In this document: piece after piece, positions 4,323 through 31,969 of the stretch
Position numbering within the stretch: position 1 is the first letter of the stretch
Layout: each line of letters starts with the position of its first letter
IMG/VR virus record: IMGVR_UViG_3300032053_000313
Span: 1-31,969 of that record
Direction: 5' to 3' (one strand)
Source of the DNA: a virus
DNA length: 31,969 bases
The notes under the pieces: generated by a model
Seen by the model: only the letters and a program-made list of their open reading frames with translations
What the model was told of the DNA's origin: nothing
Databases searched by the model: none
Made by a program: the position numbers and the translations under genes

Positions 4323-4353
4323 TACATTGTAGGGAGGGCTAGAGAGTGACCAT

Positions 4354-4429: not shown

Positions 4430-4441
4430 AGGAGGGAAGCT

Positions 4442-12887: not shown

Positions 12888-12900
12888 GCGGAGGCGGGCC

Positions 12901-16996: not shown

Positions 16997-16997
16997 T
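16967..16997 (+). promoter_or_regulatory. promoter with palindrome in spacer
   Basis: TTGACA (16967-16972) and TATAAT (16992-16997) are both perfect, separated by 19 bp. The spacer is an inverted repeat, AGCGCCC (16973-16979) and GGGCGCT (16986-16992), that fills the space between the hexamers and overlaps the first T of the -10. Long spacing plus a dyad is the layout of promoters that need a DNA-twisting activator or are blocked by a repressor. Drives the head gene cassette. Confidence 0.75.
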
Positions 16998-17004
16998 CAG
17001 ATAA

Positions 17005-17096
17005 CCGAATAGTCGAGGCTAGAGCGCCTCTCCACGCTGCAGAAAACCAGCCAAAGCGCTGTGCAGTGCGGAGAGGCGCTTTACTTTTGGATACAG
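17005..17096 (+). ncRNA. conserved hairpin leader, copy 1
   Basis: Begins at the expected transcription start. GCGCCTCTCC pairs with GGAGAGGCGC, and the stem extends inward by CTGCA/TGCAG. The 20-nt loop contains AAACCAGCCAAAGCGCTG with a small inner CAGC/GCTG hairpin. TTTACTTTT follows the stem. The same 5' block (GAATAG, CTAGAGCG), loop and U-tract recur at 28033 with compensatory base changes, so the structure is supported by covariation. It may be an intrinsic terminator/attenuator or antitermination site controlling the head genes. Confidence 0.7.
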
Positions 17097-17098
17097 AT

Positions 17099-17113
17099 GT
17101 GCCTGCCAGGCAC
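17099..17113 (+). promoter_or_regulatory. 15-bp palindrome, copy 3
   Basis: GTGCCTGCCAGGCAC, a perfect 6-bp inverted repeat with a 3-bp centre, preceded by GAT. It lies between the hairpin leader's U-tract and the protease gene's ribosome site (14 bp before ATG 17128). Confidence 0.7.
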
Positions 17114-17127
17114 GGCGGAGGCTCACG

Positions 17128-18213
17128 ATGGTGCTCGACGTGAAGGAACTCCAGAAGGCGAAGACCATTCACGACGACGTAGATCGCCTCATCGACCGGC
17201 TGGAATCGGAGGGTGCTGGCAAGACCGGCATCAGAGCGCTGCGGGTGTACCTCAAGGAGGTGGCCGCCAAGCTGAAGGGGATGCTGGGGGAGGTCGGGAA
17301 GGCGGATGAGGTGGCGCTCGAGATCAAGGAGCTCATTGTCGATAGCGGGACGGCCAGTAGCACGTCTCCGCCCGTCGTTCCCAGCGATAGCGAAGCCCCA
17401 TCGGGCCAGGAGTCTCCCGAGCTTGAAGAGGATGCCCAGCCTGACGAGGAGCTACAGGCGCTTCTGGATGAGTGCGCTGGGACGGGCGTTGCCCTGAGTG
17501 ACGAGGAGCCAGAGACGCAGCTGGTCCCGATCAGGAAGCCGTGGGACGAGAGCGACAAGGAGATCAGCCACCGCATCCGCGAGCCGGGCGACTTCCAGAA
17601 GGATTCCTTCCGGCGCATAACGCTCAAGAAGGACAAGCCCCGCATCTTTGCCATCGTTGGTCGGCTGAAAGGCAAGACGACGACCACGATCCAAGCCCTG
17701 CGGTTCCCAAAGGCAGATGGCTGGACGGTGGCCAGCGCGAAGAAGTGGGTTGCCGACCATCCGGATATCGGGAAGGGGCCTACGGCCAAGCGTCTGTACG
17801 TGGAGATTCTGAAGCAGGACGACGAGGAGCACTTGATCACCGGCGTCGCGATGGCGGCCAACCGCGTCGACCTGCAGACCGACTACATCGAGCCCTGCGA
17901 GATCAAGAAGACGATGATCGCCTTCATGGAGCGGTATCAGCAGTTCGGGCTCGACCACAAGTGCGAGACCGACCAGGTCAGGCTCGTGGAGTGCTGGCAA
18001 GCGCGTGCATCATTCGTCGAGGAAGGTAGTGAGTACCAAGTCCAGAAGGATGACTGGGTGGTCACGGTGCACGTCCTGGACGATGGGCTCTGGCAGCGGG
18101 TGAAGTCCGGCGAGTACAGGGGTTTCAGCATCGAGGGCTACGCCCACCGCATACCTGTGGACGTTGACGAGCTTCCGGATAGCGTGGAGCTTCCCGAGGA
18201 GGTGGCAGCCTGA
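17128..18213 (+). CDS. XkdF-like capsid maturation protease
   Basis: 361 aa. Residues about 230-355 match the XkdF-type phage serine protease fold: LITGVAMAANRVDLQTDYIE, then GLDHK with candidate catalytic His277, WVVTVHVLDDGLW, and GFSIEGYAHR with candidate nucleophile Ser334. An upstream module (FQKDSFRRITLKKDKPRIFA, then IQALRFPKADGWTVASAKKW) is the small domain often found before such proteases in phages. The N-terminal 140 residues are a helical, acidic linker. The protease would cleave scaffold and capsid protein during head maturation. It is followed by the scaffold-like and capsid genes, supporting the call. Confidence 0.8.
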   Translation: MVLDVKELQKAKTIHDDVDRLIDRLESEGAGKTGIRALRVYLKEVAAKLKGMLGEVGKADEVALEIKELIVDSGTASSTSPPVVPSDSEAPSGQESPELEEDAQPDEELQALLDECAGTGVALSDEEPETQLVPIRKPWDESDKEISHRIREPGDFQKDSFRRITLKKDKPRIFAIVGRLKGKTTTTIQALRFPKADGWTVASAKKWVADHPDIGKGPTAKRLYVEILKQDDEEHLITGVAMAANRVDLQTDYIEPCEIKKTMIAFMERYQQFGLDHKCETDQVRLVECWQARASFVEEGSEYQVQKDDWVVTVHVLDDGLWQRVKSGEYRGFSIEGYAHRIPVDVDELPDSVELPEEVAA

Positions 18214-18241
18214 AGCAGTAACGTCGAGCCGGATGAAACTG

Positions 18242-18327
18242 TAAGCGAATATCTAGGCTGTAGCGCCTACCAATGGTCCAAGATGAGCGCCCCGAAGCGG
18301 GCCGGGCCGGAGGTGGGTGTTTTGTTC
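18242..18327 (+). ncRNA. possible diverged hairpin leader, copy 3
   Basis: CGAATA and GGCTGTAGCGCCTACC align with the start of the leader at 17005. CGCCTACC (18264-18271) pairs throughout with GGTGGGTG (18312-18319), allowing two G-U pairs, and TTTTGTTC follows. The loop differs from the other copies and no 15-bp palindrome follows. It precedes the scaffold-like gene. The relationship is suggestive, not certain. Confidence 0.45.
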
Positions 18328-18343
18328 AAGGGGGTCAGTGGCG

Positions 18344-19474
18344 ATGAGCGATAGCGGGAAGCGGAGGAAGCGCCAGGTCCACCGGTTGGAGGACCTGGAG
18401 GTCTCGTCGATCAGCCTGGTTGATAGGCCGGCGATCGACATTGAGTTCCTGGTGCTCAAGCGTTACGACCCCGAGGCAGAGGAGGGACCGATGGCCAAGA
18501 AGAACGAAGACGAACTGGAGCCACAGGCAAAGGCCGATGAGCCTGCCGAGGAGGAAGAGGAGGTCGCGGTAGAGACCCCTGCGGCTTCTGAGGATGAGGC
18601 CCCTGCTGAGGCCAAGCCTGACGAGAAGTCGGAGTTCGAGCCGGAGTCGGGGGTGGTGGTGCTGAAGGCTGGAAAATGGGTCGGTGGCGAGAATACAGGT
18701 CTGCTGAAGCAGACCCGCGATGCCATCGAAAAGTTCGAGGCCTTCATCTCGAGGACCAAGGTAACTGACCTCGCGCTGACGGCTGATTTTCGCGCGGCGG
18801 TGCAGACGCTGCTGGACCACACGGAGCGGGCCCTGAAGCAGGAGAGCCAGACGACCGAGGGGCATATCGACTACGGCCCGACGGACTTCACCGAGGCCTG
18901 GGTCGAGGTGGAGACGGAAGACACGCTGTGGAAGGCGCTCTCGATCTTCAACCGCGTCGTCACGGCGATCTACGAGTCGGTCGAGGGCGACAAGGTCGGC
19001 ATGCTCGTCAAGGCCGTCGACGACTTCGCGTCGAGGGTCAAGGGCATGATGGGCGCGATCAAGGAGGAGCCTTCCGCAGAGGAGGCCACCGGCGAAGAGG
19101 CGCCCACTAGCGACGAGTCCGACATGCAGGTCCTGGCCAGGGCGGTGACCGATCTGAGCCAGGCCTTCGGCGACGAGATGAGCGCCATGAAGGGCCAGGT
19201 CGCTGAACTCGAGAAGCGGCTCGCTGGCGAGGCCCCGGAGCCAGAGGCGTCGACCGAGGGCGACGCGGCTGAGGAGACCGAGAAGCCGGTGACCCTTGCC
19301 GATGTTCAGAAGGCCATTGCGGCAGCCATCGCCAAGGCCAAGCAGCCGCAGTACAAGGGGCTGCTCCCGGAACCCGAGGAGACCAAGGACGAAGAGGTTC
19401 CGATGGTGCGCACTGCCAAGGAGCGGGCGCAAACGCTGCGAGAGCTGAACGAGCGGCTCCAAGGCGTGAAGTAG
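18344..19474 (+). CDS. scaffold-like head protein
   Basis: 376 aa from ATG 18344. The first 35 residues contain EVSSISLVDRPAIDIEFLVL, the 'vSLVdrPA' motif characteristic of phage head protease/scaffold N-termini. A long Glu/Ala-rich low-complexity stretch and helical coiled-coil segments follow (GDEMSAMKGQVAELEKRLAG), ending in a basic tail (TAKERAQTLRELNERLQGVK). Acidic helical composition, position between the protease and the major capsid gene, and the basic C-terminus that could bind capsid protein are all typical of scaffolding proteins. It is probably a substrate of the upstream protease. Confidence 0.7.
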   Translation: MSDSGKRRKRQVHRLEDLEVSSISLVDRPAIDIEFLVLKRYDPEAEEGPMAKKNEDELEPQAKADEPAEEEEEVAVETPAASEDEAPAEAKPDEKSEFEPESGVVVLKAGKWVGGENTGLLKQTRDAIEKFEAFISRTKVTDLALTADFRAAVQTLLDHTERALKQESQTTEGHIDYGPTDFTEAWVEVETEDTLWKALSIFNRVVTAIYESVEGDKVGMLVKAVDDFASRVKGMMGAIKEEPSAEEATGEEAPTSDESDMQVLARAVTDLSQAFGDEMSAMKGQVAELEKRLAGEAPEPEASTEGDAAEETEKPVTLADVQKAIAAAIAKAKQPQYKGLLPEPEETKDEEVPMVRTAKERAQTLRELNERLQGVK

Positions 19475-19496
19475 AACGGATAGTTTGCCCGCGGAT

Positions 19497-19511
19497 GTGT
19501 CTAGCGGGCAC
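19497..19511 (+). promoter_or_regulatory. 15-bp near-palindrome, copy 4
   Basis: GTGTCTAGCGGGCAC, preceded by GAT, 26 bp upstream of the major capsid start. As RNA its arms pair with two G-U pairs. A second pairing, TTGCCCGC with GCGGGCA, overlaps it. Confidence 0.65.
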
Positions 19512-19537
19512 CAAGACGTAAACGAGGAGGAGGAACA

Positions 19538-20851
19538 ATGAGACAGTACAGAGACGCGCTGGTGACGGCCAGCAGCGAACTAGCGAAGGCGCTGAGTGCC
19601 GCAACGGCCAGCGGCCAGGCGCTCATTCCGCAGGACCTGGAGCCGGCGCTGGTCGAGGAGCTGCTTGCACTGCAGCCGCTCCTGCGCCTGATGCCGATCA
19701 TCCCTGCCAGTGGCCGGGTGCATGAGATCGCCCGCCGCACGGCACACGGAATCGCCGTGGCCGAGGGTGCCGGCGTTCAAGGGACCGGCACCCAGGGCAC
19801 GTACGACCGACCCACCGTGACCCTGAAGATCCACCACTACTGGGGCGAGGTCGAGGGCTTCCAGCACGCCGCATCCGCCAAGTTCATCGACGACCTGGTG
19901 TTGGAGCAGCAGGGTGGCATCGAGGCCATGGCCGACCTGCTTGAGTTCGAGCTGCTCTACGGGAACGCCACGGCTGACGCCTACCTGATGGACGGCCTCG
20001 ACGCCTTGATCACGACGAACATCTTCAACATCGCCAACGTCACGGCGACCCTGACGCACCTCGACAACGCGATCGACGCGGTCAGGCAATTCCGGGGCGC
20101 CCAGACCGACCCGTACGTCTGGCTGATGTCGAGCAAGATGAAGTCGAAGATCACCGGCCTGATGACCTACGCCCGGCGCACGGTCCAGACCATCGAGTTC
20201 GAGGGCGGGTTGCGCATGGAGTCGTACTTCTACCCGATCGTCGAGAGCTCGTGCTGCGCCCCGCCTGCGACCGCACCAGCGAGCCCCGCCGCGGCGATCG
20301 CTACTGGCGGGTCTCTGCCGAACAGTGCCTACTACTACAAGATCGCGTCCGTCCGGCAGAACGGCGAGTGCATCGCGGGCGCCCAGGTTACCGCGACGTC
20401 TGGCGCCACTGAGCACAAGACGAACCTGACCTGGACGGCTGACCCGCTTGCCCTGCTCTACAAGATCTACAGGGGCACGACCACCGGCGACGCTAACCTA
20501 ACGCTGCTGACCACCATCGCGGCCAGGACGCGTCTGGGCACCGGCGCCTACGACGCCAACGTAGCGGCCTGGACCGACGAGGGTACAGTGGTGGCGCCCA
20601 CGGGTGCGGCGAACGAGGGGCCGCTGGCAACGGGCGACGAGAGCATCTTCCTGGTGAACCTGAATCCGGCCCGCGGGGCTGGGCTCGTCAGCCTGATCAA
20701 CCCGCTTGGCGACAGGGTGGACAACCTGATCAACTACATCCCGCTGGCGCAGGTGAAGGAGAGCTACCCCTTCCTGCTCAGCTGTTTCAGTGCGCTGCAG
20801 GTGCCGTGGGAGAAGCTGCACGCTCACATTCGGAAGATCAAGCCGGCGTAA
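19538..20851 (+). CDS. major capsid protein (HK97-like) with Ig-like insert
   Basis: 437 aa with a strong GAGGAGGAGG site. The N-terminal part has a helix followed by LEPALVEELLALQPLLRLMP, and then an E-loop-like TVTLKIHHYWGEVEGFQHA. The middle has the spine-like LLEFELLYGN and YVWLMSSKMKSKI segments of HK97-fold capsid proteins. Residues about 240-365 are an insertion (SAYYYKIASVRQNGE, LTWTADPLALLYKIYRGTT) with the alternating strand pattern of a fibronectin-III/Ig-like domain, likely displayed on the capsid surface. The fold resumes with SIFLVNLNPARGAGLVSLIN. Position after the scaffold-like gene and its own palindrome fit the most highly expressed gene. Confidence 0.85.
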   Translation: MRQYRDALVTASSELAKALSAATASGQALIPQDLEPALVEELLALQPLLRLMPIIPASGRVHEIARRTAHGIAVAEGAGVQGTGTQGTYDRPTVTLKIHHYWGEVEGFQHAASAKFIDDLVLEQQGGIEAMADLLEFELLYGNATADAYLMDGLDALITTNIFNIANVTATLTHLDNAIDAVRQFRGAQTDPYVWLMSSKMKSKITGLMTYARRTVQTIEFEGGLRMESYFYPIVESSCCAPPATAPASPAAAIATGGSLPNSAYYYKIASVRQNGECIAGAQVTATSGATEHKTNLTWTADPLALLYKIYRGTTTGDANLTLLTTIAARTRLGTGAYDANVAAWTDEGTVVAPTGAANEGPLATGDESIFLVNLNPARGAGLVSLINPLGDRVDNLINYIPLAQVKESYPFLLSCFSALQVPWEKLHAHIRKIKPA

Positions 20852-20929
20852 CAGGACGGCAATATGAGGGGCTGGAGGTAGTGGCCGCACCCCCTGCCTC
20901 CTAGTCCCTCACCAGGGAGGCGTAAACGG

Positions 20930-21526
20930 ATGGGCTATTGCACGGAGGCCCAGGCGGCGGCTCTGGACAAGAGCCTGGCGCAGGAGGATGTCCAGGCCGA
21001 CTGGCTGGAGTGGGCTGATGGCTTGATCGACCAGTGGCGCGAGAAGACCTACGCCGATGAGGTCGAGATCACCGAGGTGCTCGACGGCAACGGCGACGAG
21101 ATGCTGGTGCTCAGCCATCGCCCGGTTACGGCAGTGTCATCGGTGACCATTGACGAAAGTGCCCTGTCTGTCGATGCCTACGCCTGGTATCCGAACGGCC
21201 ACCTGGTGATGAAGGCGTGGCCGCTCCTGCTTGACTGGCCGGCGCCATCGGCATGGCCCGTGGGGCACCAGAACGTGCAGGTGACGTACAAGTACGGCCT
21301 CGCCAGCAGTGGCAGCGTGCCGGCTGAGGTGGCCCTGTGCGCAGCGCAGCTAGCCTGCCTGATAGCCAGGTATGCGAAGAACGGCCAGCTGGCAGGGGTA
21401 GCCGAGCGCTGGAGCATAGGGAGCGTATCGCGGTCGCTCGAGACCAAGAACGAGGGCTTGATGGGCGAGGCGAAGGCGATCCTTGAATCGACGTTGGGGG
21501 CGCGGCCGCCAGCGCTCTATTGCTGA
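20930..21526 (+). CDS. head-tail connector (gp6-like adaptor)
   Basis: 198 aa, GGAGGCG before ATG 20930. The N-terminal helices (DWLEWADGLIDQWREKTY), then strands VEITEVLDGNGDEMLVLSHR and PVTAVSSVTID, then NVQVTYKYGL and a helical end (LCAAQLACLIARYA) give the mixed pattern typical of phage adaptor proteins that dock below the portal. It follows the capsid gene directly. Confidence 0.7.
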   Translation: MGYCTEAQAAALDKSLAQEDVQADWLEWADGLIDQWREKTYADEVEITEVLDGNGDEMLVLSHRPVTAVSSVTIDESALSVDAYAWYPNGHLVMKAWPLLLDWPAPSAWPVGHQNVQVTYKYGLASSGSVPAEVALCAAQLACLIARYAKNGQLAGVAERWSIGSVSRSLETKNEGLMGEAKAILESTLGARPPALYC

Positions 21527-21538
21527 GGAGGAAACAGA

Positions 21539-21826
21539 ATGGCGAAGAAGGGGCCAGGGGGCTGGAGAGCAAAGCCGATCTTCGGGTTCGCGCTGGATGT
21601 CATGTGCGGCGGTTGCGAGAAGTGGGTGCGCGAGGTCGCGGCGGATTCGGCAGCCGAGGCAACGAACGGTGAGGGCCGCTGCCGAGAGTGCTTACTGAAG
21701 GAACCCGTGATCGTCGAGGTGGAGCCGGAGCCGGCAGTCCTGGTCGAGGCCGAGCCTGAGGAGAAGCCGGTGCCGCCCTGGGAGAGGCCAACACCAGTCA
21801 GAAGGGATAGCGGCCGGCATCGCTAA
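21539..21826 (+). CDS. small zinc-binding protein, 95 aa
   Basis: GAGGAGGAAACAG precedes ATG 21539. MCGGCEKW and CRECLLKE form two CxxC pairs. The second half is a low-complexity Glu/Pro/Val tail (VEVEPEPAVLVEAEPEEKP). It lies inside the head cassette but is not a recognised structural protein. Confidence 0.55.
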   Translation: MAKKGPGGWRAKPIFGFALDVMCGGCEKWVREVAADSAAEATNGEGRCRECLLKEPVIVEVEPEPAVLVEAEPEEKPVPPWERPTPVRRDSGRHR

Positions 21827-21860
21827 GAGCCAGCCGTAATAGAGAAGGAGGCAAGTTGAC

Positions 21861-22208
21861 ATGGCTGTAAGGACAGAGATCGTACCAAGCCAGATAGTGG
21901 TGACTGGCGTTGCACAGCCAGCGCAGACGACCGGCATCGCTGAAGGACACAAGTTCCTGAATGACGGGGCTGTGTTCGTCGAGGCCTACAACTCGAGCTC
22001 GGGGGGGGCGCTGGTCTTCACATTCCAGACCCCGAGGACGATCCGTGGGCTGGCCGTGGCCGAGCGGGCCGTGTCCGTAGGTGCCTTGGGCACCACGCTC
22101 GTGGGGCCGTTCAACATCGAGGACTACAACCAGTCGGATGGGATGGTGTACCTGGACTACGACGTGACGAGCTACGCGCTGCAAAAGATCCGGGTGTGCA
22201 GGCTCTAG
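21861..22208 (+). CDS. putative head decoration/structural protein, 115 aa
   Basis: AAGGAGG before ATG 21861. A beta-rich protein: KFLNDGAVFVEAYNSSSGGA, LVFTFQTPRTIRGLAVAERA, VGPFNIEDYNQSDGMVYLDY. The 'NDG.vf.ev.N' start and 'GPf....Y.q.dG.vyldY' end recur in phage structural proteins located just after the connector, probably decoration or fibre proteins. Exact role unproven. Confidence 0.6.
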   Translation: MAVRTEIVPSQIVVTGVAQPAQTTGIAEGHKFLNDGAVFVEAYNSSSGGALVFTFQTPRTIRGLAVAERAVSVGALGTTLVGPFNIEDYNQSDGMVYLDYDVTSYALQKIRVCRL

Positions 22209-22216
22209 GAGACGTC

Positions 22217-22591
22217 GTGGAGTTCGAGGACCTGCTGGTGCACACGGCGACGGTCCAGCGCCACGGGACGCGCGAGGACCGGTTCGGGCAGCCCGTGCTG
22301 GACGACTGGAACACGCTCGGGCAGTTCACCTGCCGCCTGACGCCGCCGAAGGGCGGCGAGCGGTATACCGACCGGTCGCAGGGCGTGGTCGTGGCCGACT
22401 ACGTGCTGTACTTCCTGCCCGCTGCGACCATCGGCGAGGCGGACCGGGTGTCTGTGGTAACGGCCGCGGATGGCTCCGTCCTGGCCCAGGACCTGGACGT
22501 GCTGCTTGTGCAGCAGCACTGCGACCTGGAGGGCGCTCCGCATCATCTGGAGGTGCCGTGCCGGTTGCACAGGGAGCCGAGCAGTGGCTAG
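22217..22591 (+). CDS. head closure/stopper protein
   Basis: 124 aa from GTG 22217 with TAGGAG upstream. The pattern MEFEDLLVHTATVQRHG, FGQPVLDDWNTLG, FTCRLTP, then YVLYFLPAATIGEADRVSVV and a final HHLEVPCRLH is that of phage head-closure (stopper) proteins: a small beta-barrel that caps the connector. Overlaps the next start by 8 nt. Confidence 0.7.
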   Translation: MEFEDLLVHTATVQRHGTREDRFGQPVLDDWNTLGQFTCRLTPPKGGERYTDRSQGVVVADYVLYFLPAATIGEADRVSVVTAADGSVLAQDLDVLLVQQHCDLEGAPHHLEVPCRLHREPSSG

Positions 22592-22988
22592 CAGGATCAA
22601 CTGGAAGGGTGCCGTGGTGGAAAAGGATGCGCGGAAGGCAGCGGCCGCCGGCCTGATAGCCGTTGCCGATGAGGTTGCCCGCGAGGCGAAGGGTATCGTT
22701 CACGTCAAGACGGGCACCTGCAAGCGCAGCATCCACACGGCGCCGCCTGGTTACAGCGGCGCCGGCGACTTCGAGAAGGCCAAGAGGACGGACCTGCAGG
22801 CTCCTGGCATGGGCGCCAGGTTCAGCGGGCTCGTGGCGCAGTACGGCGTCGTCTGGCTCGGCTCCTGGGTGCCCTATGCCTGCGTGCTGGAGAACCGGTT
22901 CCCGTACATCTATCCGGCGTTCGAGAAGGTACGAGGGCGGGCAGCGGCTGCGCACATGGCGCGGGCGTTCAAGATGGCAGGCTTCTAA
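22584..22988 (+). CDS. HK97 gp10-like neck/tail completion protein
   Basis: 134 aa from GTG 22584. It has a helix (RKAAAAGLIAVADEVAREAK), then VHVKTGTCKRSIHTAPPG (the 'v.TG.Lr.Si' motif of gp10-like proteins), then YGVVWLGSWVPYACVLE and PYIYPAFEKVRG. These match HK97 gp10-type proteins that join head and tail. Position supports it. Confidence 0.75.
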   Translation: MASRINWKGAVVEKDARKAAAAGLIAVADEVAREAKGIVHVKTGTCKRSIHTAPPGYSGAGDFEKAKRTDLQAPGMGARFSGLVAQYGVVWLGSWVPYACVLENRFPYIYPAFEKVRGRAAAAHMARAFKMAGF

Positions 22989-23407
22989 TGGTGTCGATTG
23001 TGGAACTGCTGAGAACGTACCTCTCTATGGACGGTGACCTGGAGACCGCCACGCCCGGGGGCATCCGTGTGGGCCCCTGTTCGCATGGCCAGCAGCAGGC
23101 TGGCTGCATCAGCCTGATGTCGGCTGGCCTGGCGGAACTCGGCACCGACTTGCCGTTGCGACGGCTTAGGATACAGGCCCGCTGTTTGGCACCGGAACTC
23201 GAGCAGAGCGAGACCATCGGCAGGGAGCTGGAACGGGTTGTCGATGGCGCTAGTCGGGTGGCGGTACACCAGCCCAGCGATGGGCAGGACTACCTGGTCC
23301 ACTGCATGAGCGTGAACGGCGGGCCGTCGAGCCATCGGGACTCCGATGTGACCTGGGAAACACTGCTCTTTGTCGAGGTTCTGGTGGGAACGGAGGCGAT
23401 TGAATGA
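22988..23407 (+). CDS. tail terminator/minor capsid-like protein
   Basis: 139 aa, ATG 22988 overlapping the previous TAA by one base. VSIVELLRTYLSMDG starts the protein; LRRLRIQARCLAPELEQSET and a terminal LLFVEVLVGTEAIE follow. A beta-alpha layout with a helix-first start and a final beta strand is that of tail terminator proteins, which sit here in the gene order (after neck, before major tail). Sequence support is weak, position support good. Confidence 0.6.
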   Translation: MVSIVELLRTYLSMDGDLETATPGGIRVGPCSHGQQQAGCISLMSAGLAELGTDLPLRRLRIQARCLAPELEQSETIGRELERVVDGASRVAVHQPSDGQDYLVHCMSVNGGPSSHRDSDVTWETLLFVEVLVGTEAIE

Positions 23408-23658
23408 AGTGGTTAGCGACGTACATCGGCGATGGCCCTCGCTTCTTGTGCAGTAGCAAGGGGCTGGAGTGGGCGCAGGGTGAGACTAAAGAGATCGACG
23501 AGGACACCGCGTTGCTGATACGGGAGTCGTTCCCCGACCTGGTCCGGCTGGAGCAGGTGGAGGAGCCGCATCCTGGGAAGAAGCAGCGCGAGGAGCCGCC
23601 GGCCAAGGAGGCTGCGCCAGACGATACTGCCCCGCCGGAGGAGGGCGAACAGAGCTAG
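23404..23658 (+). CDS. hypothetical protein, 84 aa
   Basis: ATG 23404 overlaps the previous stop. The first 50 residues look ordered (WAQGETKEIDEDTALLIRES, 'F.dlvrle'); the rest is charged and Pro-rich. Small proteins with this 'G...eid...a..l.......f' pattern are common next to major tail genes. Function unknown. Confidence 0.55.
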   Translation: MKWLATYIGDGPRFLCSSKGLEWAQGETKEIDEDTALLIRESFPDLVRLEQVEEPHPGKKQREEPPAKEAAPDDTAPPEEGEQS

Positions 23659-23677
23659 CAACCGTCTGCCGGGAAAT

Positions 23678-23692
23678 GTGCCTGGCAGACAC
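23678..23692 (+). promoter_or_regulatory. 15-bp near-palindrome, copy 5
   Basis: GTGCCTGGCAGACAC, preceded by AAT, 28 bp upstream of the major tail gene. An overlapping longer pairing, GTCTGCC (23664-23670) with GGCAGAC, also exists. Confidence 0.65.
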
Positions 23693-23720
23693 GGAAAGGT
23701 AATCGAGGAGGTGTAGTGAA

Positions 23721-24281
23721 ATGCCAGAAGCACCATTTGCGGTAATCGTAGGGCCGGCTGAGGTCTGGGTTGCCCCGGTGGCAACGACGTTCCCTGTTGT
23801 GAGCGCCGCGCCGGCCTCTGACTGGCTATCGCTCGGCAAGACCGATGGCGGCGTGACCGTTACCCACGGCCAGACGCAGGTGAAGATCCGCGTCGACCAG
23901 GTGACTGGGCCTTTGAAGATCGTCAGGACCGAGGAAGACCTGACGATCGCTTTCAACCTGGCCGAGCTGACGCTGGAGACCTATGGGCGGATGCTGAACG
24001 CCGCGGCCGTGACGTCTGACGCTGGGCCGCCGGCAACGAAGCACATCGGCCTGTACCAGAACGTCGACGTGAGCCAGTGGGCGTTGCTGATACGCGGCGG
24101 CTCGCCCTACGGCGACTGGAATCTGCAGTACGAGATCCCGAAGGTCGCTCAATCGGGCACGCCCAGCGTGAAATTCACGCGTGACGACAAGGCCACGCTC
24201 TCGGTCGAGTTCATTGCCCTGTACGATTCCAGCCAGTCGGCAGGGGAAGAGTTCGGCCGCCTGATGGCCCAAAGCGCGTAG
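23721..24281 (+). CDS. major tail protein
   Basis: 186 aa with GGAGGTGTAG upstream. Tail-tube fold pattern: an N-terminal FAVIVGPAEVWVAPVA, DWLSLGKTDGGVTVTHGQTQ, then the long strands TEEDLTIAFNLAELTLETYG and a closing DDKATLSVEFIALYDSS. The 'W..lG.t.gg......' start and an 'L.v.F.aL.D' end are typical of siphovirus tube proteins. Between neck genes and the tail chaperone, as expected. Confidence 0.8.
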   Translation: MPEAPFAVIVGPAEVWVAPVATTFPVVSAAPASDWLSLGKTDGGVTVTHGQTQVKIRVDQVTGPLKIVRTEEDLTIAFNLAELTLETYGRMLNAAAVTSDAGPPATKHIGLYQNVDVSQWALLIRGGSPYGDWNLQYEIPKVAQSGTPSVKFTRDDKATLSVEFIALYDSSQSAGEEFGRLMAQSA

Positions 24282-24305
24282 CTGGTAGCAGGAGGCATAG
24301 CCGGG

Positions 24306-24548
24306 ATGGCAGAGCCTGTGAAGTTGAAGGACGTTGCCCAGCTCGCAGCGGCTGTCTGGGACACAGGACGACGGCTGAAGCGCATGGAGCGACGCTGCCG
24401 CTTGGACAGTAAGGAACTGGCCCAGCAGTTCGCGTATCTGCAACTCATGCTGGCGTCGTTCGGTATTGAAGTGCCTGGCATAGACGAAAGGGGAGGTCAT
24501 AGCCATGGCGAAGAAGAGGACGAAAAAGGAACAACCCCCGAGTCCTGA
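24306..24548 (+). CDS. hypothetical protein, 80 aa
   Basis: ATG 24306 with AGGAGG upstream. Helical (LKDVAQLAAAVWDTGRRLKR, QFAYLQLMLASFGIEVPG), ending in an acidic His-containing tail. It overlaps the next gene by 44 nt, more than usual here, so the end or existence of the protein is slightly uncertain. Confidence 0.5.
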   Translation: MAEPVKLKDVAQLAAAVWDTGRRLKRMERRCRLDSKELAQQFAYLQLMLASFGIEVPGIDERGGHSHGEEEDEKGTTPES

Positions 24549-25017
24549 GCCGTCGGCCGCTGAGCCGAAGGCCGAGATCAACAAGGACATGGACCCCGGC
24601 CACGGGCTGGAGATCCTGAAGCTCAGCGACATCATCCCCGACGGGCGGCCCCTGGAAGTGGATGGGCAGCGCTACACGCTGTTGCACCCCGGAGCGCTCA
24701 GCCTGTACGGCACGGTTGTTGTCAGCAAACTGCGCTCCCGCTGGGGCGAACTATTCCGCAAGTGGCATGCCGATGAGTGTACCGAGGAAGAGGCAGATGA
24801 GCTGGACGAGGTTGCCTGCCAGCTCGTGCCCCTGATCAGCGACATGCCCGAGGATGTGGCTAGGGGCTGGACGTGGCGTATACGGAGCCAGGTGGTGACG
24901 CTGCACTTCGGGTTCATCGCCGAGGTGCTCCCAAATTTGAAGGGGGCGGCTCTGATGCTGAACAGGGCGGCCCGGCGGGCGGCGCAGAAGGAGAAGGGCG
25001 AGGGTGGGGATGGCTGA
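24505..25017 (+). CDS. tail assembly chaperone, short form (G-like)
   Basis: 170 aa, GGGGAGG before ATG 24505. An N-terminal Lys/Pro-rich tail, then RPLEVDGQRYTLLHPGALSL and a helical acidic part (CTEEEADELDEVACQLVPLI). The end is basic and Ala-rich. Position between the major tail and tape measure genes and the presence of a second frame that continues without a start codon identify the tail chaperone pair. The zero-frame product is the G-like form, which recruits tube subunits around the tape measure. Confidence 0.7.
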   Translation: MAKKRTKKEQPPSPEPSAAEPKAEINKDMDPGHGLEILKLSDIIPDGRPLEVDGQRYTLLHPGALSLYGTVVVSKLRSRWGELFRKWHADECTEEEADELDEVACQLVPLISDMPEDVARGWTWRIRSQVVTLHFGFIAEVLPNLKGAALMLNRAARRAAQKEKGEGGDG

Positions 25018-25316
25018 TCACCCAGATTTCCTACCACTACCACATCGGGTACGAGGAACAGCTCAGGATGAGCCTGATAGCCTTTAACACCTATCTGAAA
25101 CACCTGCCTGGTCATCTGAATGAAGACGCCTTGCGTCTGGTAGCTGCGGCTGCGTTCCCATATATGGATCGGGATGGGCGCGAGCGGTTCTTGCGGGACC
25201 TGCAGGGCGCAGAGCGAAAGCCGGAACGTAGGATGAGCAAAGAAGAATATGCGATGCACCTAGCCGCGCTTGGCCTGCCGCTGATAGAGGTTCCGGCCAA
25301 GGAGGATGGTAAGTGA
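25002..25316 (+). CDS. tail assembly chaperone, frameshift extension (T-like)
   Basis: This frame lies at -1 relative to the gene at 24505 and stays open to TGA 25314-25316 without a plausible start or ribosome site. It reads HYHIGYEEQLRMSLIAFNTY, DRDGRERFLRDLQG and SKEEYAMHLAALGLPL. A -1 slip just before the zero-frame stop (candidate bases AAGGGC at 24994-24999 or GGGTGGGG at 25002-25009) would make a G-T fusion of about 270 aa, the standard way siphoviruses make their long chaperone form. No perfect X-XXY-YYZ heptamer is present, so the exact site is uncertain. Confidence 0.7.
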   Translation, partial: GWGWLITQISYHYHIGYEEQLRMSLIAFNTYLKHLPGHLNEDALRLVAAAAFPYMDRDGRERFLRDLQGAERKPERRMSKEEYAMHLAALGLPLIEVPAKEDGK

Positions 25317-25318
25317 GG

Positions 25319-25522
25319 CTAGGGCTGGGGCTCGGCGTCCCCTGTAGGGGCGGGCTTGAGAATGGCGTCCAGCTCCTCGCGCCGGAGACGACGTCGGCCT
25401 TTGGGCATGATGTGGTAGGGCAACCTGCCCTCATGCATCAGCCTATAAATAGTTCGCCGCGTTACCTTCAGATACGCAGCAGCTTCCTTACTTGTCAACC
25501 ACTCATCCATCACCCTATCCAT
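25319..25522 (-). CDS. excisionase-like helix-turn-helix protein
   Basis: 67 aa on the minus strand, the only convincing minus-strand protein gene in the window. DEWLTSKEAAAYLKVTRRTI, YRLMHEGRLPYH and GRRRLRREELDAIL form the winged MerR-like HTH_17 ('excisionase family') domain. Start at 25522 (ATG); ATG 25510, which begins the domain exactly, is equally likely. It ends 2 bp from the chaperone stop (convergent). A GATAAT preceded by TGC (minus strand, 25557-25552) may be its promoter. Likely a repressor or a recombination directionality factor. Confidence 0.8.
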   Translation of the reverse strand: MDRVMDEWLTSKEAAAYLKVTRRTIYRLMHEGRLPYHIMPKGRRRLRREELDAILKPAPTGDAEPQP

Positions 25523-25579
25523 GTTACCAGAACGTTCCCTGGAAGGCAACAATTATCGCAAGATTTCCTGCCATGTCCC

Positions 25580-25609
25580 TTGACAATAGGGTCAATCCCT
25601 GCGTATAAT
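25580..25609 (+). promoter_or_regulatory. consensus promoter
   Basis: TTGACA (25580-25585), 18-bp spacer, TATAAT (25604-25609): perfect at both hexamers. Divergent to the excisionase-like gene and upstream of three tiny Zn-protein genes. The spacer contains the pair AGGG/CCCT (25588-25600). Confidence 0.85.
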
Positions 25610-25655
25610 AAGAATAAGAGAGACATGCAGGGACAGAGGCAAGAAGGAGAGGGGA

Positions 25656-25763
25656 ATGGCAGCGATAACATTCCGGCCCGCGAACAGTTGGGTGTGCGCC
25701 TGCGGCCAGTGGAACCTCAAGGGCATCGAGACCTGCCGCGGCTGCGAGAAGCCGAGGTCCTAG
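25656..25763 (+). CDS. RanBP2-like zinc-finger microprotein, 35 aa
   Basis: ATG 25656 with AGGAGAGGGG upstream; stop TAG 25761-25763. It reads NSWVCACGQWNLKGIETC then CRGCEKPRS. W-x-C-x-C, a central Asn and C-x2-C are the elements of the RanBP2/NZF zinc finger. These fingers bind RNA or ubiquitin in eukaryotes; in phages the role is unknown. The next ATG follows the stop directly. Confidence 0.55.
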   Translation: MAAITFRPANSWVCACGQWNLKGIETCRGCEKPRS

Positions 25764-25994
25764 ATGGCAGCGACGGTTGGAGAGGAAGCCCCCTGCACGT
25801 TCACTGGCTGTGGCCAGCCGGGCAAGGTTCTCCTGGCAATGGACGGATGGGCAATCGCCATCTGCGCCGCGTGCGAAGCCAGGGCAGTGCACTTTTGGCG
25901 ATCACTGGAAGCGCAGGAGGCCCGCCAGCAGGGGAGGCTGCGTCGGAAGAAGGAGCGGGCTCACGGACTCATAGCAATATCAGCCAGAGGCTGA
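25764..25994 (+). CDS. small zinc-binding protein, 76 aa
   Basis: Starts at ATG 25764 directly after the previous stop. CTFTGCGQPGK and ICAACEARA give four Cys. A basic helical C-terminus follows (QEARQQGRLRRKKERAH). Not a recognised family. Confidence 0.55.
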   Translation: MAATVGEEAPCTFTGCGQPGKVLLAMDGWAIAICAACEARAVHFWRSLEAQEARQQGRLRRKKERAHGLIAISARG

Positions 25995-26009
25995 AGGAGG
26001 GAAAGGGAG

Positions 26010-26300
26010 ATGGAAGCGGTATGTTTCTTCTGCGAGGGAGAAGTGGCCGGCCGGGGATCCCAGGAAGGCAAGAGCATCGACGGCCAGGACGTAACAATCG
26101 CAGTCTGCAGCGACTGCGTGGGCTCTCTAGGGGTGCTCTTGGCCGACATAACGAGCGAACTAGAGGACGGGATGTCAAAGGCTGGCTGGCTGCGGCAGGC
26201 CCTGGAGCGCCTGAGCGCCGAGGCCTGGGAGGCGCTGGCCCTGCACCAGGAAGGGACCGCAGATCGGCAAATTCTGGAGGCTGCGGTTTGCCGGGCGTGA
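26010..26300 (+). CDS. ClpX-type zinc finger-like protein, 96 aa
   Basis: ATG 26010 after GAGGGAAAGGGAG. VCFFCEGEV, a spacer with SIDGQDVTIAV, then CSDCVGSLG: two CxxC pairs with the spacing seen in ClpX-type zinc-binding domains. A helical C-terminus follows. A host-protease adaptor role is imaginable but not shown. Confidence 0.5.
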   Translation: MEAVCFFCEGEVAGRGSQEGKSIDGQDVTIAVCSDCVGSLGVLLADITSELEDGMSKAGWLRQALERLSAEAWEALALHQEGTADRQILEAAVCRA

Positions 26301-26335
26301 CCATGTTGGTAGGTCGGTGTTCTATCCACATAAGA

Positions 26336-26373
26336 CAACGGGACGGAGACATGCCTCAATCTCCGCCCCGTTG
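26336..26373 (-). terminator. minus-strand hairpin A
   Basis: CAACGGGGCGGAGA and TCTCCGTCCCGTTG (minus strand) pair over 14 bp with one G-U. On the + strand that position is an A-C mismatch, so the hairpin belongs to a minus-strand transcript. TCTTATGTG follows. A near copy is hairpin B. Confidence 0.55.
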
Positions 26374-26432
26374 CAAAGCAGGTCGTGTCGTCATCCCTTC
26401 GCTCAGGGAGACACAGCCCTCTAGCACGGTAA

Positions 26433-26462
26433 AGGTTACCGCAGTCAGGGGGTCCTTGTCAA
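26433..26462 (-). promoter_or_regulatory. possible minus-strand promoter A
   Basis: On the minus strand TTGACA (26462-26457), 18-bp spacer, TAACCT (26438-26433). The -35 is perfect, the -10 weak. It lies just downstream of tRNA 1 and would transcribe toward hairpin A. Confidence 0.35.
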
Positions 26463-26474
26463 TAGGGAGACCGA

Positions 26475-26548
26475 AGCCCTGGACGGGACTCGAACCCGTG
26501 ACCTGCGCCTTAGCTAGAGGGCCGCTCTATCCGCTGAGCTACCAGGGC
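26475..26548 (-). tRNA. tRNA with unusual anticodon arm (no CCA encoded)
   Basis: Acceptor GCCCTGG/CCAGGGC, D stem GCTC/GAGC with loop AGCGGATA, variable loop AGGTC and T arm ACGGG-TTCGAGT-CCCGT are all perfect. The anticodon arm is 18 nt instead of 17 (GCCCTCTAGCTAAGGCGC). It can be read as an 8-nt loop CTAGCTAA on an imperfect stem, or as a 7-nt loop CTAGCTA with a bulge in the stem. Anticodon identity is therefore open (AGC, GCT or a four-base AGCT). Confidence 0.75.
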
Positions 26549-26572
26549 TAGGAGGATGATATCACATAAGAG

Positions 26573-26602
26573 AACGGGACGGAGAAGTGCCTCCGCCCCG
26601 TT
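26573..26602 (-). terminator. minus-strand hairpin B
   Basis: AACGGGGCGGAG pairs with CTCCGTCCCGTT (minus strand, one G-U), followed by CTCTTATGTG. It shares the CATAAGA-AACGGGACGGAG block with hairpin A, so the two are direct repeats about 237 bp apart. Confidence 0.55.
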
Positions 26603-26641
26603 GCTCAGTTGGAAAGAACGCGCATTCCTGCTGAACTTAAG

Positions 26642-26669
26642 CCTATAGGAATCGAAGGGTAGATGTCAA
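26642..26669 (-). promoter_or_regulatory. minus-strand promoter B
   Basis: TTGACA (26669-26664), 16-bp spacer, TATAGG (26647-26642) on the minus strand. It would give a transcript starting near 26635 that meets hairpin B within about 65 nt, upstream of tRNA 1. Confidence 0.55.
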
Positions 26670-26708
26670 GGAATTCATACCTGGGGGGGAGTGTAGAAAA
26701 GCAAATGA

Positions 26709-26736
26709 GACGGGAGATTTGCCCTGGTCTCCCGCC
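26709..26736 (-). terminator. minus-strand hairpin C
   Basis: GGCGGGAGA pairs with TCTCCCGTC (one G-U) on the minus strand, followed by TCATTTGCTTTTC. This is the best U-rich tail of the three minus-strand hairpins. Confidence 0.6.
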
Positions 26737-26805
26737 CCACTGCCGTTGGTCGCATCCTCGCCCTTACTCAGAAAAGGACGTGCGCCCCTCTCACGAAGTA
26801 CCTTT

Positions 26806-26833
26806 ATTATCGTACATTCTGGGGATTTGTCAA
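26806..26833 (-). promoter_or_regulatory. minus-strand promoter C
   Basis: TTGACA (26833-26828), 16-bp spacer, GATAAT (26811-26806) on the minus strand: a near-consensus promoter between tRNA 2 and hairpin C. It would produce an RNA of about 100 nt ending at hairpin C, in which I see no open reading frame with a ribosome site. Confidence 0.6.
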
Positions 26834-26856
26834 GGGGGGTTCGCCAGAAAAAGGCT

Positions 26857-26933
26857 TGGTGCCCCCGGCGGGACTCGAACCCGCGACCTTCTCCTTCGTG
26901 AGAGGAACGCTCTATCCGCTGAGCTACGGGGGC
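26857..26933 (-). tRNA. tRNA, probable Arg-type body, anticodon uncertain
   Basis: GCCCCCG/CGGGGGC acceptor with encoded ACCA, D stem GCTC/GAGC with AGCGGATA loop, T arm GCGGG-TTCGAGT-CCCGC. The body looks like bacterial tRNA-Arg. Between G26 and the AGGTC variable loop there are 18 nt (TTCCTCTCACGAAGGAGA). A 7-nt loop CTCACGA with stem TTCCT/AGGAG gives anticodon CAC (Val codon GTG) and a 6-nt variable loop. An 8-nt loop CTCACGAA would contain ACG (Arg). Confidence 0.8.
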
Positions 26934-26942
26934 ACCAGGAGG

Positions 26943-26971
26943 ATGGTAGCGCTAGGGACCCGAGGCGTCAA
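26943..26971 (-). promoter_or_regulatory. minus-strand promoter of tRNA 2
   Basis: TTGACG (26971-26966), 17-bp spacer, TACCAT (26948-26943). The -10 ends 9 bp before the tRNA 5' end, so transcription would begin at or just before the mature tRNA. Confidence 0.5.
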
Positions 26972-27003
26972 CGTGGCCGGCTGACGATGAGGAGACCGCG
27001 GGG

Positions 27004-27819
27004 ATGAGCGAAGACACGCAGGTGCTGACCGCCGAGGAGCGGGAGGCTAGAAGGCGGGAACAGGCAAGGGAGCGGGAGCGGCGGTATCGCCTGCGCCATC
27101 CGGAGAAAGTGCGCGCAAAGAAGCGCCGGTATCGTGCTAGGCACCCTGAGCGAGTACAGGAGCAGCAGAGACAAAACTATGCTGCTCATGGGGAGGAACG
27201 GCGGGAGTATAGCCGGCGGTACACCGCCGAGGGCCGTAACAAGAGACCTTGCGTCGGCTGCGGCGAACCCTGTCTAGGCCGTCCGCCCGTCCCTCGCTGT
27301 TGCAAATGTGCCGCCCTCCACTATCGGGGCGATAGGCATTGGAATTATAAGGGCGGGTGTATCAGGCGCGATGGCTATCGGTATGTGGGCTGGAATGGCG
27401 TAAGGCAACTTGAGCATCAACTCATCTGGGAATCCGTGTATGGTCCTGTGCCTCGGGGTTGGCTGATCCATCATCTGAACGGGGACAAGCTCGACAATCG
27501 GCTGAGGAATCTGGTGCCTTTTCCTTCTGCGGTGCACACAAGGCTTCACCGACTGGTGGCCGCCGGTGCCTTCTCCCTCCATCAGGCTGCGGTGGAAGTC
27601 AGGCCGATGTTGGCGGGCAAGGCCCCGACTCTTGCTGAGGCCCGCAAGGCACTCAGGGCCCAGTACAGGGGCGACCCGGGTAAGCAGGCCTCCTACGAGA
27701 GGAAGCTGCTGAAGCCTGACTGGGCCGGCAGGATGGCCCCGGTCGAGCGAACCTACGTCCTGCAGGTACTGTATAGAGCGATGAGGAAGCTTCTGGCGGC
27801 TATGCCAAGGAGCGAGTGA
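27004..27819 (+). CDS. HNH homing endonuclease 3 (intact form)
   Basis: 271 aa from ATG 27004. Basic N-terminal helix (AEEREARRREQARERERRYR) with repeated RHPE/RYRARH units, zinc knuckle (PCVGCGEPCLGR...CCKC), a YRYVGWNG segment, HNH core (GWLIHHLNGDKLDNRLRNLV, closing HTRLHRL) and a C-terminal part (APTLAEARKALRAQY, then RKLLKPDWAGRM) that probably binds DNA. It is the fullest of three paralogues (others at 11052 and 14207) and the reference for judging their damage. Not inside a gene; it lies within the island between chaperone and tape measure. Confidence 0.85.
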   Translation: MSEDTQVLTAEEREARRREQARERERRYRLRHPEKVRAKKRRYRARHPERVQEQQRQNYAAHGEERREYSRRYTAEGRNKRPCVGCGEPCLGRPPVPRCCKCAALHYRGDRHWNYKGGCIRRDGYRYVGWNGVRQLEHQLIWESVYGPVPRGWLIHHLNGDKLDNRLRNLVPFPSAVHTRLHRLVAAGAFSLHQAAVEVRPMLAGKAPTLAEARKALRAQYRGDPGKQASYERKLLKPDWAGRMAPVERTYVLQVLYRAMRKLLAAMPRSE

Positions 27820-27847
27820 GGCTGCACATGCGGAAGCCTGGCGGAGT

Positions 27848-27855
27848 GCTATAAT
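27848..27855 (+). promoter_or_regulatory. extended -10 promoter (TGC-TATAAT)
   Basis: TATAAT at 27850-27855 with TG at 27847-27848. No -35 at normal spacing. It would drive the small membrane peptide and possibly the tape measure gene through hairpin leader copy 2. Confidence 0.55.
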
Positions 27856-27889
27856 GGCTAGTAGAATCCCGGCCTGGGGAAGGGGAGCC

Positions 27890-27997
27890 ATGCTCCGTGA
27901 CATAGTCGTCGTAGCCGCCGGAATAGCCCTTTTCGTCCTCGCGGTGGTCGTGCTCTACATTCTGGTGGGTGCCCTTCACTCTGGCACCATGAGGTAG
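27890..27997 (+). CDS. one-helix membrane peptide, 35 aa
   Basis: AGGGGAG four bases before ATG 27890. After a short MLRD start comes an uninterrupted hydrophobic helix (IVVVAAGIALFVLAVVVLYI) and a polar end. It is a single transmembrane segment with no cleavage site. Size and position (own promoter, next to the tail gene) fit a small holin-like or envelope-acting peptide, but there is no sequence proof. Confidence 0.6.
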   Translation: MLRDIVVVAAGIALFVLAVVVLYILVGALHSGTMR

Positions 27998-28032
27998 GAG
28001 TCCAAAGATAGATACGAAGTAAGGCATCTGAT

Positions 28033-28120
28033 AATCGAATAGCGGAGCTAGAGCGCTCCTTTCCTGTCGCGACAAACCGGCCCGAGCGCCGTGCGACAAG
28101 GGAAGGAGCTTTCGTTTTGG
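28033..28120 (+). ncRNA. conserved hairpin leader, copy 2
   Basis: GCTCCTTTCCTGTCGC pairs with GCGACAAGGGAAGGAGC (one bulge). The loop contains AAACCGGCCCGAGCGCCG with an inner CGGC/GCCG hairpin, and TTTCGTTTT follows. Compared with the copy at 17005, the stem sequence is different but still paired, and the inner hairpin shows a compensatory A-T to G-C change, while AAACC, AGCGC and the flanking GAATAG and CTAGAGCG are kept. Confidence 0.7.
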
Positions 28121-28128
28121 GGGCGAAT

Positions 28129-28143
28129 GTGTCTGGTAGGCAC
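28129..28143 (+). promoter_or_regulatory. 15-bp near-palindrome, copy 6
   Basis: GTGTCTGGTAGGCAC preceded by AAT, between hairpin leader copy 2 and the tape measure start (25 bp before ATG 28169). It has the same order as at 17099: hairpin, U-tract, palindrome, ribosome site, gene. Confidence 0.7.
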
Positions 28144-31100: not shown

Positions 31101-31969
31101 TGGAGCTGGCCCTGACCGGGCTGAACGATCAGATCAAGGTGCAGGAGGACTACCTGGCCGACCTGGACGAGGCCACCAAGCAGATCACCGAGTCGCAGCA
31201 GGCGTGGGGTGACGAGGTCGACCGGCTAGGCGGACTCCTGGATGCGGCCAACGACGACCTGCGGAAGTTCACCGACGCCCAGATCGAGGGCACCGGCTGG
31301 TATGACGATGCGTTGTTCAGCCTCGGGATCCAGATGGACAAGCTGAACCTCAAGATCAACGACCTGAAGCAGCAGAAGCTGGGGCTTGATGACGAGTCGT
31401 CCAAGGCGAAGGCGCTCGATAAAGACATCGAGGCGCTTGAAGAGGAGCTGGACGGGCTGGGGCTGAAGGCTGACGAGCTCCAGCTGAAAGAGCGGATAAG
31501 GTTCGACCCCCTGCGGCGCGAGATAGAGGATCTGACCGACACGACGGAGGAGATGTCGTTCGAGGACATCATCGCCGGCATCACGAAGACGCAAGGCGTG
31601 ATAGAAGACCTGACCGACGCCGTGGCTGGAGCCACGAGCCAGGTGGAGGCGCACGACGCCATCCTGAAGGTGCTGAGCAAGTCGCAGGAGTATCACCAGG
31701 AAATCCTGGACGGCGTGAAGGACAAGTACGGCGAGCTGACGGAGGCTCTGGAGGACATCGGCCCCGACCTGGCCAAGATAGCTGACAGTATGGGCGAGGG
31801 CTATGCCGAGGCGCTGCAGAACGCATTCAAGGCGATGGAGGCGGGGAACACGCTCACTGCAGGCGACGCCCTGGCGGCTGCCCAGACGCTGTTTGATGAC
31901 CTGGAGGTTCTGATCCAGGGTTCGGGCCAGGAGCAGCTGTTGGTCCCGCTTGGTGACGTTCTGGCCGAT
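28169..31969 (+). CDS. tail tape measure protein, 5' part
   Basis: At least 1267 codons, open to the right edge of the window. N-terminal region matches the TP901-type tape measure core: a helical start (VDSAALRSGLSAAEKDVSGS), FDASIARTTGLTSATAEEMA, LSKALYFILSAGIPAADAMK, VADAVTSVLNAYKLGADKAA, LAGSMGKVIGVAAAMGISFE and ATTALRATMSAFLKPSEEM. Hydrophobic segments near residues 375-395 and 430-450 are the usual candidates for membrane insertion during injection. The end of the visible part is a coiled coil (NLKINDLKQQKLGLDDESSK, IEALEEELDGLGLKADELQL). It sets tail length and is wrapped by the G/G-T chaperones encoded at 24505. The ribosome site GGGGGTAGGGAG is strong. Confidence 0.9.
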   Translation, partial: MAANLGVAILELKVDSAALRSGLSAAEKDVSGSLKNMGMGMTMAGAAGIAAFGLASKAAISFDASIARTTGLTSATAEEMATLREEVLKLAPAVGKGPLELSKALYFILSAGIPAADAMKVLEASAKAASAGLGETKVVADAVTSVLNAYKLGADKAAWATDVLTQIVTQGKVPPEELAGSMGKVIGVAAAMGISFEEVGANIAVMTRVGMDAAMATTALRATMSAFLKPSEEMRNLVDSLGMSMEDLRNKIKQEGLLATLQMMIDATGGNTSALAELFPNVRALTDVLSSAGSQGEQYVAVLGEMQAAAGLSGEAFATMEATTSHKLEKLKASFDVMLISIGEEIAPAIGNMADSLRGMITWLEKVPDPIRKIGVQGGVTASALLLMVGMIDLTVLSLGRMARDAKTAIIALKGMSAIQAMTPMLSALIPMLGPLGLAGGLIAAAVAAKYFEDEIDAGLRKLPLLGGLMSDPITKLKEFSQAAKDLNLALEAGIISQVEYGERALPELAAAAGRAAKAYRDDLTKALGDELLAEKALAGETAVLIQKYGLWDASMGPVVDLVEAYDKEMNQVIDTMINAGYTYGQVRNALIAQGVAVEDLLGKNVKLEELYQKSQVDAEADKLLNYAKNLKGAALAAEDLPPSIDVATVAMAGLTAAGNDWATWVATNMPEMSEQAKAFGEAATGALDSYQESLKALLPAQEETLNEWITRLQQLAVDYNTWEQSLEFIQDTFVAKAGLLPGEIDAIMAMFIGELPAVANDFAAKLTDPMAQEYIDTMVEIVRASGKAPKDMSKEFLAGKSDMAIAVGLFTQQGIIDVLDSYEPIIQERGKRLKWAMEQGFTGETTEAITYIDRDVAKIMLTVENGMKVGGVYKTFIWAGESADAMAAAFAARAPDAAASIAGDVALIMNRAHSAMTSSPEYVTETWGGEAVGDLAHGWSAGKEPAAASMEETTKAILESGVLGPLVALGAEMKDTVELALTGLNDQIKVQEDYLADLDEATKQITESQQAWGDEVDRLGGLLDAANDDLRKFTDAQIEGTGWYDDALFSLGIQMDKLNLKINDLKQQKLGLDDESSKAKALDKDIEALEEELDGLGLKADELQLKERIRFDPLRREIEDLTDTTEEMSFEDIIAGITKTQGVIEDLTDAVAGATSQVEAHDAILKVLSKSQEYHQEILDGVKDKYGELTEALEDIGPDLAKIADSMGEGYAEALQNAFKAMEAGNTLTAGDALAAAQTLFDDLEVLIQGSGQEQLLVPLGDVLAD

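Follow-up and report, generated by a model that had tools for sequence, protein, structure and literature searches.

Three copies of a structured RNA with a switch architecture lie ahead of virion genes in an uncultured tailed phage

The window, i.e. the whole stretch of DNA analysed, is a 31,969-base record of an uncultured tailed phage and represents a fragment of an incomplete phage genome. Its structural genes encoded a portal, a connector, a head maturation protease (Peptidase_S78_2), an SU10-type major capsid protein, a major tail protein and a tape measure protein, the gene for the last extending past the window end (Table 1). Between the protease and major capsid genes lay a gene whose 376-aa product had no family match; its mechanical ORF start (18317) falls inside one of the RNA elements described below, and the ATG at 18344 was judged the likelier start. 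The fragment also possessed four dispersed HNH endonuclease genes (610-1095, 10806-11765, 14207-14812 and 27004-27819), two of them similar in DNA, and an S-adenosylmethionine decarboxylase gene (12850-13383). Two tRNA genes (26473-26933), on the minus strand and thus opposite to the structural genes, had repeated flanks at 26327 and 26563. At 4293-4430, a perfect promoter (TTGACA-18-TATAAT) preceded a tRNA-like sequence (about 4354-4430) missing from both the ARAGORN and the Rfam output, while the intergenic region 7381-7545 is possibly structured, with a TATAAT, a closed CGGGGCAG/CTGCCCCG stem across 52 nt, and a 9-bp stem followed by CTTTCT. A small HTH_17 (excisionase/MerR-like) DNA-binding protein gene (25319-25519, minus strand) adjoined a divergent perfect promoter at 25580.

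An element of about 85 nt occurred three times in the window (copy 1, ~17002-17088; copy 3, 18242-18326; copy 2, 28032-28118), as three natural variants with different stems. An earlier note on this DNA had described two such regions, preceding the genes for the head protease and the tape measure protein and sharing GAATAG, CTAGAGCG, a core AAACC-R-GCC..AGCGC-Y-G, a T-rich tail and a palindrome. All these features were present, and both copies are real, but the description was incomplete: a scan for small hairpins sharing the loop detected a third copy (site at 18254), which precedes the 18344 gene between the protease and major capsid genes. All three copies were intergenic and in gene orientation, each ahead of a virion gene.

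Every copy possessed a box (UAANCGAAUA), a 5-bp hairpin with the hexaloop UNNAGC (H1), a long, bulged stem whose tip is a 4-bp hairpin with the hexaloop CNNAGC (H2), and a U-rich tail. The parts followed one another in the order box (TAANCGAATA), 2-3 nt, strand X (5 nt), TNNAGC loop, strand X' (5 nt), further stem, bulge, H2, return strands, strand X'' and T-tail. Nine of the ten box positions were identical across the three copies, and the hexaloops of H1 (TAGAGC, TAGAGC and TGTAGC in copies 1, 2 and 3) and H2 (CAAAGC, CCGAGC and CGAAGC) ended in AGC in six of six cases. The large one-sided bulge of the long stem, with its neighbours, read GAAAAC, ACAAAC or AAGATGA.

Table 1. Positions in the window of the RNA element copies, neighbouring motifs and structural genes.
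Feature	Position	Strand	Remark
Portal gene	7947-9686		
Consensus sigma-70 promoter of copy 1	TTGACA 16967-16972, TATAAT 16992-16997	+	19-nt spacer; direct reading
Copy 1 box	17002..17011	+	TAACCGAATA
Copy 1 H1 (antiterminator candidate)	17015..17030	+	GAGGC[TAGAGC]GCCTC
Copy 1 terminator-like long stem	17024-17079	+	10-bp base
Copy 1 H2	17048..17061	+	CAGC[CAAAGC]GCTG
Copy 1 U-tail	17080-17088	+	TTTACTTTT
Dyad after copy 1	17099..17113		GTGCCTGCCAGGCAC; separate motif
Head maturation protease gene (Peptidase_S78_2)	17128..18213	+	downstream of copy 1
Copy 3 box	18242..18251	+	TAAGCGAATA
Copy 3 H1	18254..18269	+	TAGGC[TGTAGC]GCCTA
Copy 3 terminator-like long stem	18263-18320	+	with G-U pairs
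Copy 3 H2	18289..18302	+	GCCC[CGAAGC]GGGC
Copy 3 tail	18320-18326	+	TTTTGTT
Gene, 376 aa, between protease and major capsid genes	18344..19474	+	downstream of copy 3
SU10-type major capsid gene	19538-20851		
Major tail gene	23721-24281		
Copy 2 box	28032..28041	+	TAATCGAATA
Copy 2 H1	28044..28059	+	GGAGC[TAGAGC]GCTCC
Copy 2 terminator-like long stem	28055-28109	+	
Copy 2 H2	28078..28091	+	CGGC[CCGAGC]GCCG
Copy 2 U-tail	28110-28118	+	TTTCGTTTT
Dyad after copy 2	28129..28143		GTGTCTGGTAGGCAC; separate motif
Tape measure gene	28169..31969	+	downstream of copy 2; extends past window end

The compensatory change that the earlier note had claimed was borne out over the three copies: 66 of 66 helix cells held standard pairs, and two-sided change affected 15 of 22 pairs. 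These counts come from a hand alignment, used because MAFFT offsets the H1 arms by one base from copy to copy; having been made by structure, it is biased towards the structure. When arms were crossed between copies, pairing dropped to 46-77%. Relative to dinucleotide shuffles, copies 1 and 2 also gave the better folds (z -5.85 and -3.29, respectively). Independently of the hand alignment, a covariance model of copies 1 and 2 retrieved copy 3 in the window (E 1.5e-4), and a model of copies 1 and 3 retrieved copy 2 (E 4e-10), these E-values being rough since each model had two training sequences and a short calibration. With the model of copies 1 and 2, the only non-training match better than copy 3 was copy 1 read in antisense, which its long hairpin would lead one to expect; covariance-model searches found no further credible copies within the window.

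A letter-free descriptor (5-bp Watson-Crick hairpin with a 6-nt loop, a strand pairing with X' at 46-67 nt from the X start, and a T-rich tail) found exactly the three sites on the plus strand of the window and none on the minus strand. In 1000 shuffles it found a mean of 0.004 and a maximum of 1 site per shuffle, and in other viral and bacterial DNA (3.2 million strand-bases) 0.07 sites per window length; as the descriptor was set after the copies had been seen, these figures express rarity and give no clean p-value. The gene strand folded more strongly than its complement in all three copies, so the plus-strand RNA is likely the functional form. Overall, there is good support for selection on an RNA structure that precedes structural genes, and this three-copy structured RNA with its switch architecture is real and previously undescribed.

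The switch architecture lies in three strands that vary in step: X reads GAGGC in copy 1, GGAGC in copy 2 and TAGGC in copy 3, and X' and X'' change with it, G-U pairs being employed in X'' of copy 3. Pairing of X with X' forms H1, pairing of X' with X'' forms the base of the long stem, and the two are mutually exclusive. Each was fully paired in all three copies, with two-sided change in three of its five pairs. The sequence CTAGAGCG, which had been listed as a feature shared by the two copies, belongs to H1, whose competition with the long stem had been missed earlier.

In folds of growing 5' fragments, H1 was present from 27 nt and was replaced by the long stem at about 72-78 nt, once X'' had emerged and just before the U-tail. 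Copy 3 favoured a different fold at 48-66 nt, and copy 2 departed briefly from H1 at 57 nt. With H1 enforced, the long stem remained open over its lowest 5 bp; small 3' hairpins formed instead in copies 1 and 2, while the inner stem of copy 3 rearranged. Prefix and constrained folds together gave mutually exclusive antiterminator and terminator hairpins in three of three copies. The terminator state was favoured without ligand by 17, 8 and 8 kcal/mol (copies 1, 2 and 3; computed), and H1 would consequently win only if held in time, for which a factor would be needed. A T-rich tail stood behind each of the three stems, and the intrinsic-terminator d-scores were borderline (6.9, -0.9 and -2.0 for copies 1, 2 and 3), so the predicted termination may be partial. 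The AGC ends common to the H1 and H2 loops suggest a common ligand, and together with the invariant box they would point to a ligand that is probably a protein.

The earlier note had also placed a promoter upstream of the element. Copy 1 does have a consensus promoter, TTGACA-19-TATAAT, but it is the only copy with one directly upstream; the promoter scan allows a spacing of at most 18 nt, and this promoter is consequently unlisted there. Its over-long spacer is filled by a perfect 7-bp dyad, AGCGCCC-N6-GGGCGCT (16973-16992). A 19-nt-spaced promoter with a dyad-filled spacer is typical of MerR-type control; a connection to the HTH_17 protein encoded at 25319-25519 would be conjectural.

The palindrome reported to follow the element does so directly in copies 1 and 2 but is separate from the RNA. 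It is a 15-bp dyad, GTGYC-N5-GRCAC, found seven times (positions 541, 7641, 11840, 17099, 19497, 23678 and 28129) against 0.16 expected by chance. It was rejected as a part of the RNA because five of the seven dyads stand without an element and copy 3 has no dyad. Six of the seven were intergenic and ahead of starts (genes at 610, about 7673, 17128, 19538, 23721 and 28169), and the dyad at 11840 had no evident intergenic gap. The C/T choice varied on both sides without covariation, two sites giving a C-A mismatch as RNA, and a protein-bound DNA dyad therefore fits better than an RNA hairpin. Cluster K mycobacteriophages likewise carry short repeats, the Start Associated Sequences, just before the starts of some phage genes, some with inverted repeats, but these are 13 bp long and asymmetric (GGGATAGGAGCCC; PMC3203893), unlike the 15-bp dyad.

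Further copies in viral metagenomes, which the earlier note had looked to for support, did not emerge from pattern searches of IMG/VR, except for copy 3 in one relative. The degenerate core pattern gave at least 80 matches, with the flanking element in none among the matches listed; the core plus U-tail gave 55 matches, none homologous; the box joined to CTAGAGCG gave no match; and the box+H1+H2 and box+H1 patterns found the close relative L082/L153 only. One strict pattern gave 15 chance matches in GTDB genomes, several in tRNA genes. No instance turned up by nucleotide search in INPHARED, with copies 1 and 3 as queries, or in PLSDB, with copy 1. Exact-pattern scans of this kind overlook diverged copies. 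Rfam reported tRNAs only over the whole window at the gathering score, and a single chance microRNA match (E 0.63) for the copies at E<=1.

At the protein level, the capsid search found one 95%-identical contig (L082), whereas the portal and tape measure proteins had no relatives in IMG/VR; in INPHARED, a capsid match was absent and portal and tape measure matches were only distant. L082 carried an identical copy 3, which is uninformative on constraint since it lies in a near-identical block of roughly 4.6 kb with diverged flanks. Compared with window positions 17769-25387, it was identical over about 18.2-22.9 kb and clearly diverged on either side, a pattern that suggests recent recombination across the capsid region. 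One dyad of L082 had T for C.

Among known systems, the design is closest to the ANTAR-target attenuators of eut (EutV), in which two hexaloop hairpins, the second overlapping the terminator, are repeated in an operon, with A at loop position 1, G at position 4 and a linker of 5-12 (PMC3369931, PMC8934654). The element likewise has, in three of three copies, two small hairpins with 6-nt loops, one of which overlaps the 5' arm of a putative intrinsic terminator, and it recurs several times in one operon, always preceding a gene; an RGC/GCY stem closing the loop is also part of the reported eut element AGCAANGRRGCUY. On the other hand, the H1 and H2 loops (YNNAGC) lack A1 and G4, and the exclusive hairpin is the first one, H1, with H2 inside the terminator. 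Drawn as UA[ANCGAA]UA, the box would have an A1/G4 hexaloop, which is a lead only; its stem would be a weak 2 bp, and the linker 2-3 nt against 5-12. The ANTAR domain (PF03861) had no match in the fragment of this incomplete phage genome. We propose by analogy that the element may work similarly, and do not class it as an ANTAR target.

RAT antiterminators (BglG/SacY/LicT family) occupy a 29-30 nt stretch (PMC3369931). Each is a single hairpin, held by a protein, whose formation precludes an overlapping intrinsic terminator, and the layout proposed for the element is similar. H1 differs in being a perfect 5-bp hairpin of 16 nt, with a second, like-looped hairpin within the terminator. Of the antitermination or attenuation previously suggested, the attenuation form is supported by the competing strands in three of three copies and the U-tail, but the accompanying comparison with HK022 put RNA is weaker. 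That RNA consists of two stem-loops (about 70 nt) that bind RNA polymerase and, with no dedicated protein, suppress distant terminators (PMC9378689). It is also a phage cis-acting RNA of similar length with a part in termination control, and putL directly follows a promoter, as copy 1 does; the element, in contrast, is a strand-exchange switch with a U-tail, within the structural region. As an analogue, put RNA ranks below the ANTAR-target attenuators.

We consider it somewhat probable that the copies are tandem transcription attenuators, with H1 as the antiterminator and the long stem as a weak intrinsic terminator. On emerging RNA, H1 (X:X', UNNAGC hexaloop) would form first. If it were left unheld, X'' would displace X, the long stem would close against the U-tail, and part of transcription would stop before the protease, 18344 or tape measure gene. 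If a factor bound the box and/or the H1 and H2 hexaloops, H1 would persist, the bottom 5 bp of the terminator could not form, and the polymerase would continue into the virion genes. The choice between the two states would probably be set by this RNA-binding factor, whose existence and timing we infer.

The same stems could instead be constitutive weak terminators that need no trans factor and lower the low-copy virion parts (protease, tape measure) by a fixed ratio, H1 only tuning the speed of terminator folding. Borderline d-scores, a terminator that is the stable state, and capsid and major tail genes with no element immediately upstream all agree with this, but the invariant box and AGC loop ends would be left unexplained, and capsid would be lowered too, since its gene follows copies 1 and 3 and no separate promoter for it is evident; we regard this explanation as unlikely. 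A put- or nut-like role, in which the emerging RNA would load onto polymerase by itself or together with a protein and confer resistance to later terminators, seems distinctly improbable: copy 1 directly follows a consensus promoter, the box and small hairpin resemble a boxA/boxB layout and the copies repeat along the region, yet such a role needs neither the U-tail nor the exclusive third strand, put RNA is two stem-loops (PMC9378689), and the promoter scan found no promoter adjacent to copies 2 and 3.

We give very little credence to a processing or stability element, whose long hairpin RNase III would cut or which would guard the 3' end of the upstream mRNA; a long imperfect stem between same-orientation genes would suit that function, but H1 covariation, the conserved loops and box, and the U-tail would have no explanation in it. 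Slightly less credible still is translation control, with the element or alternative folds hiding or exposing the start region of the next gene: the 3' ends of the elements lie 24-51 nt upstream of start codons (for copy 3, about 18 nt from the ATG at 18344), but the ribosome sites are outside the predicted stems, and copies 1 and 2, unlike copy 3, are divided from the start by a separate dyad. Two further candidates were rejected, namely a self-cleaving ribozyme (hammerhead letters do not fit by eye, and an Rfam match is absent) and a recombination site or mobile element (the pairing persists through sequence divergence, and the copies are always gene-oriented).

Under the attenuator reading, the switch probably times or doses virus-particle production. 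A more specific proposal, which we advance tentatively and hold at less than an even chance, is that the elements are phage-specific protein-gated attenuators with paired YNNAGC hexaloop hairpins, placed serially in the structural operon and releasing virion-assembly genes together, and distinct from N/nut, Q, put, RAT and ANTAR systems. Such use of attenuation had no precedent in the limited literature searched. If true, a tailed phage would regulate single morphogenesis genes within its structural region by repeated RNA switches, compact at about 85 nt and pointing to an RNA-binding factor.
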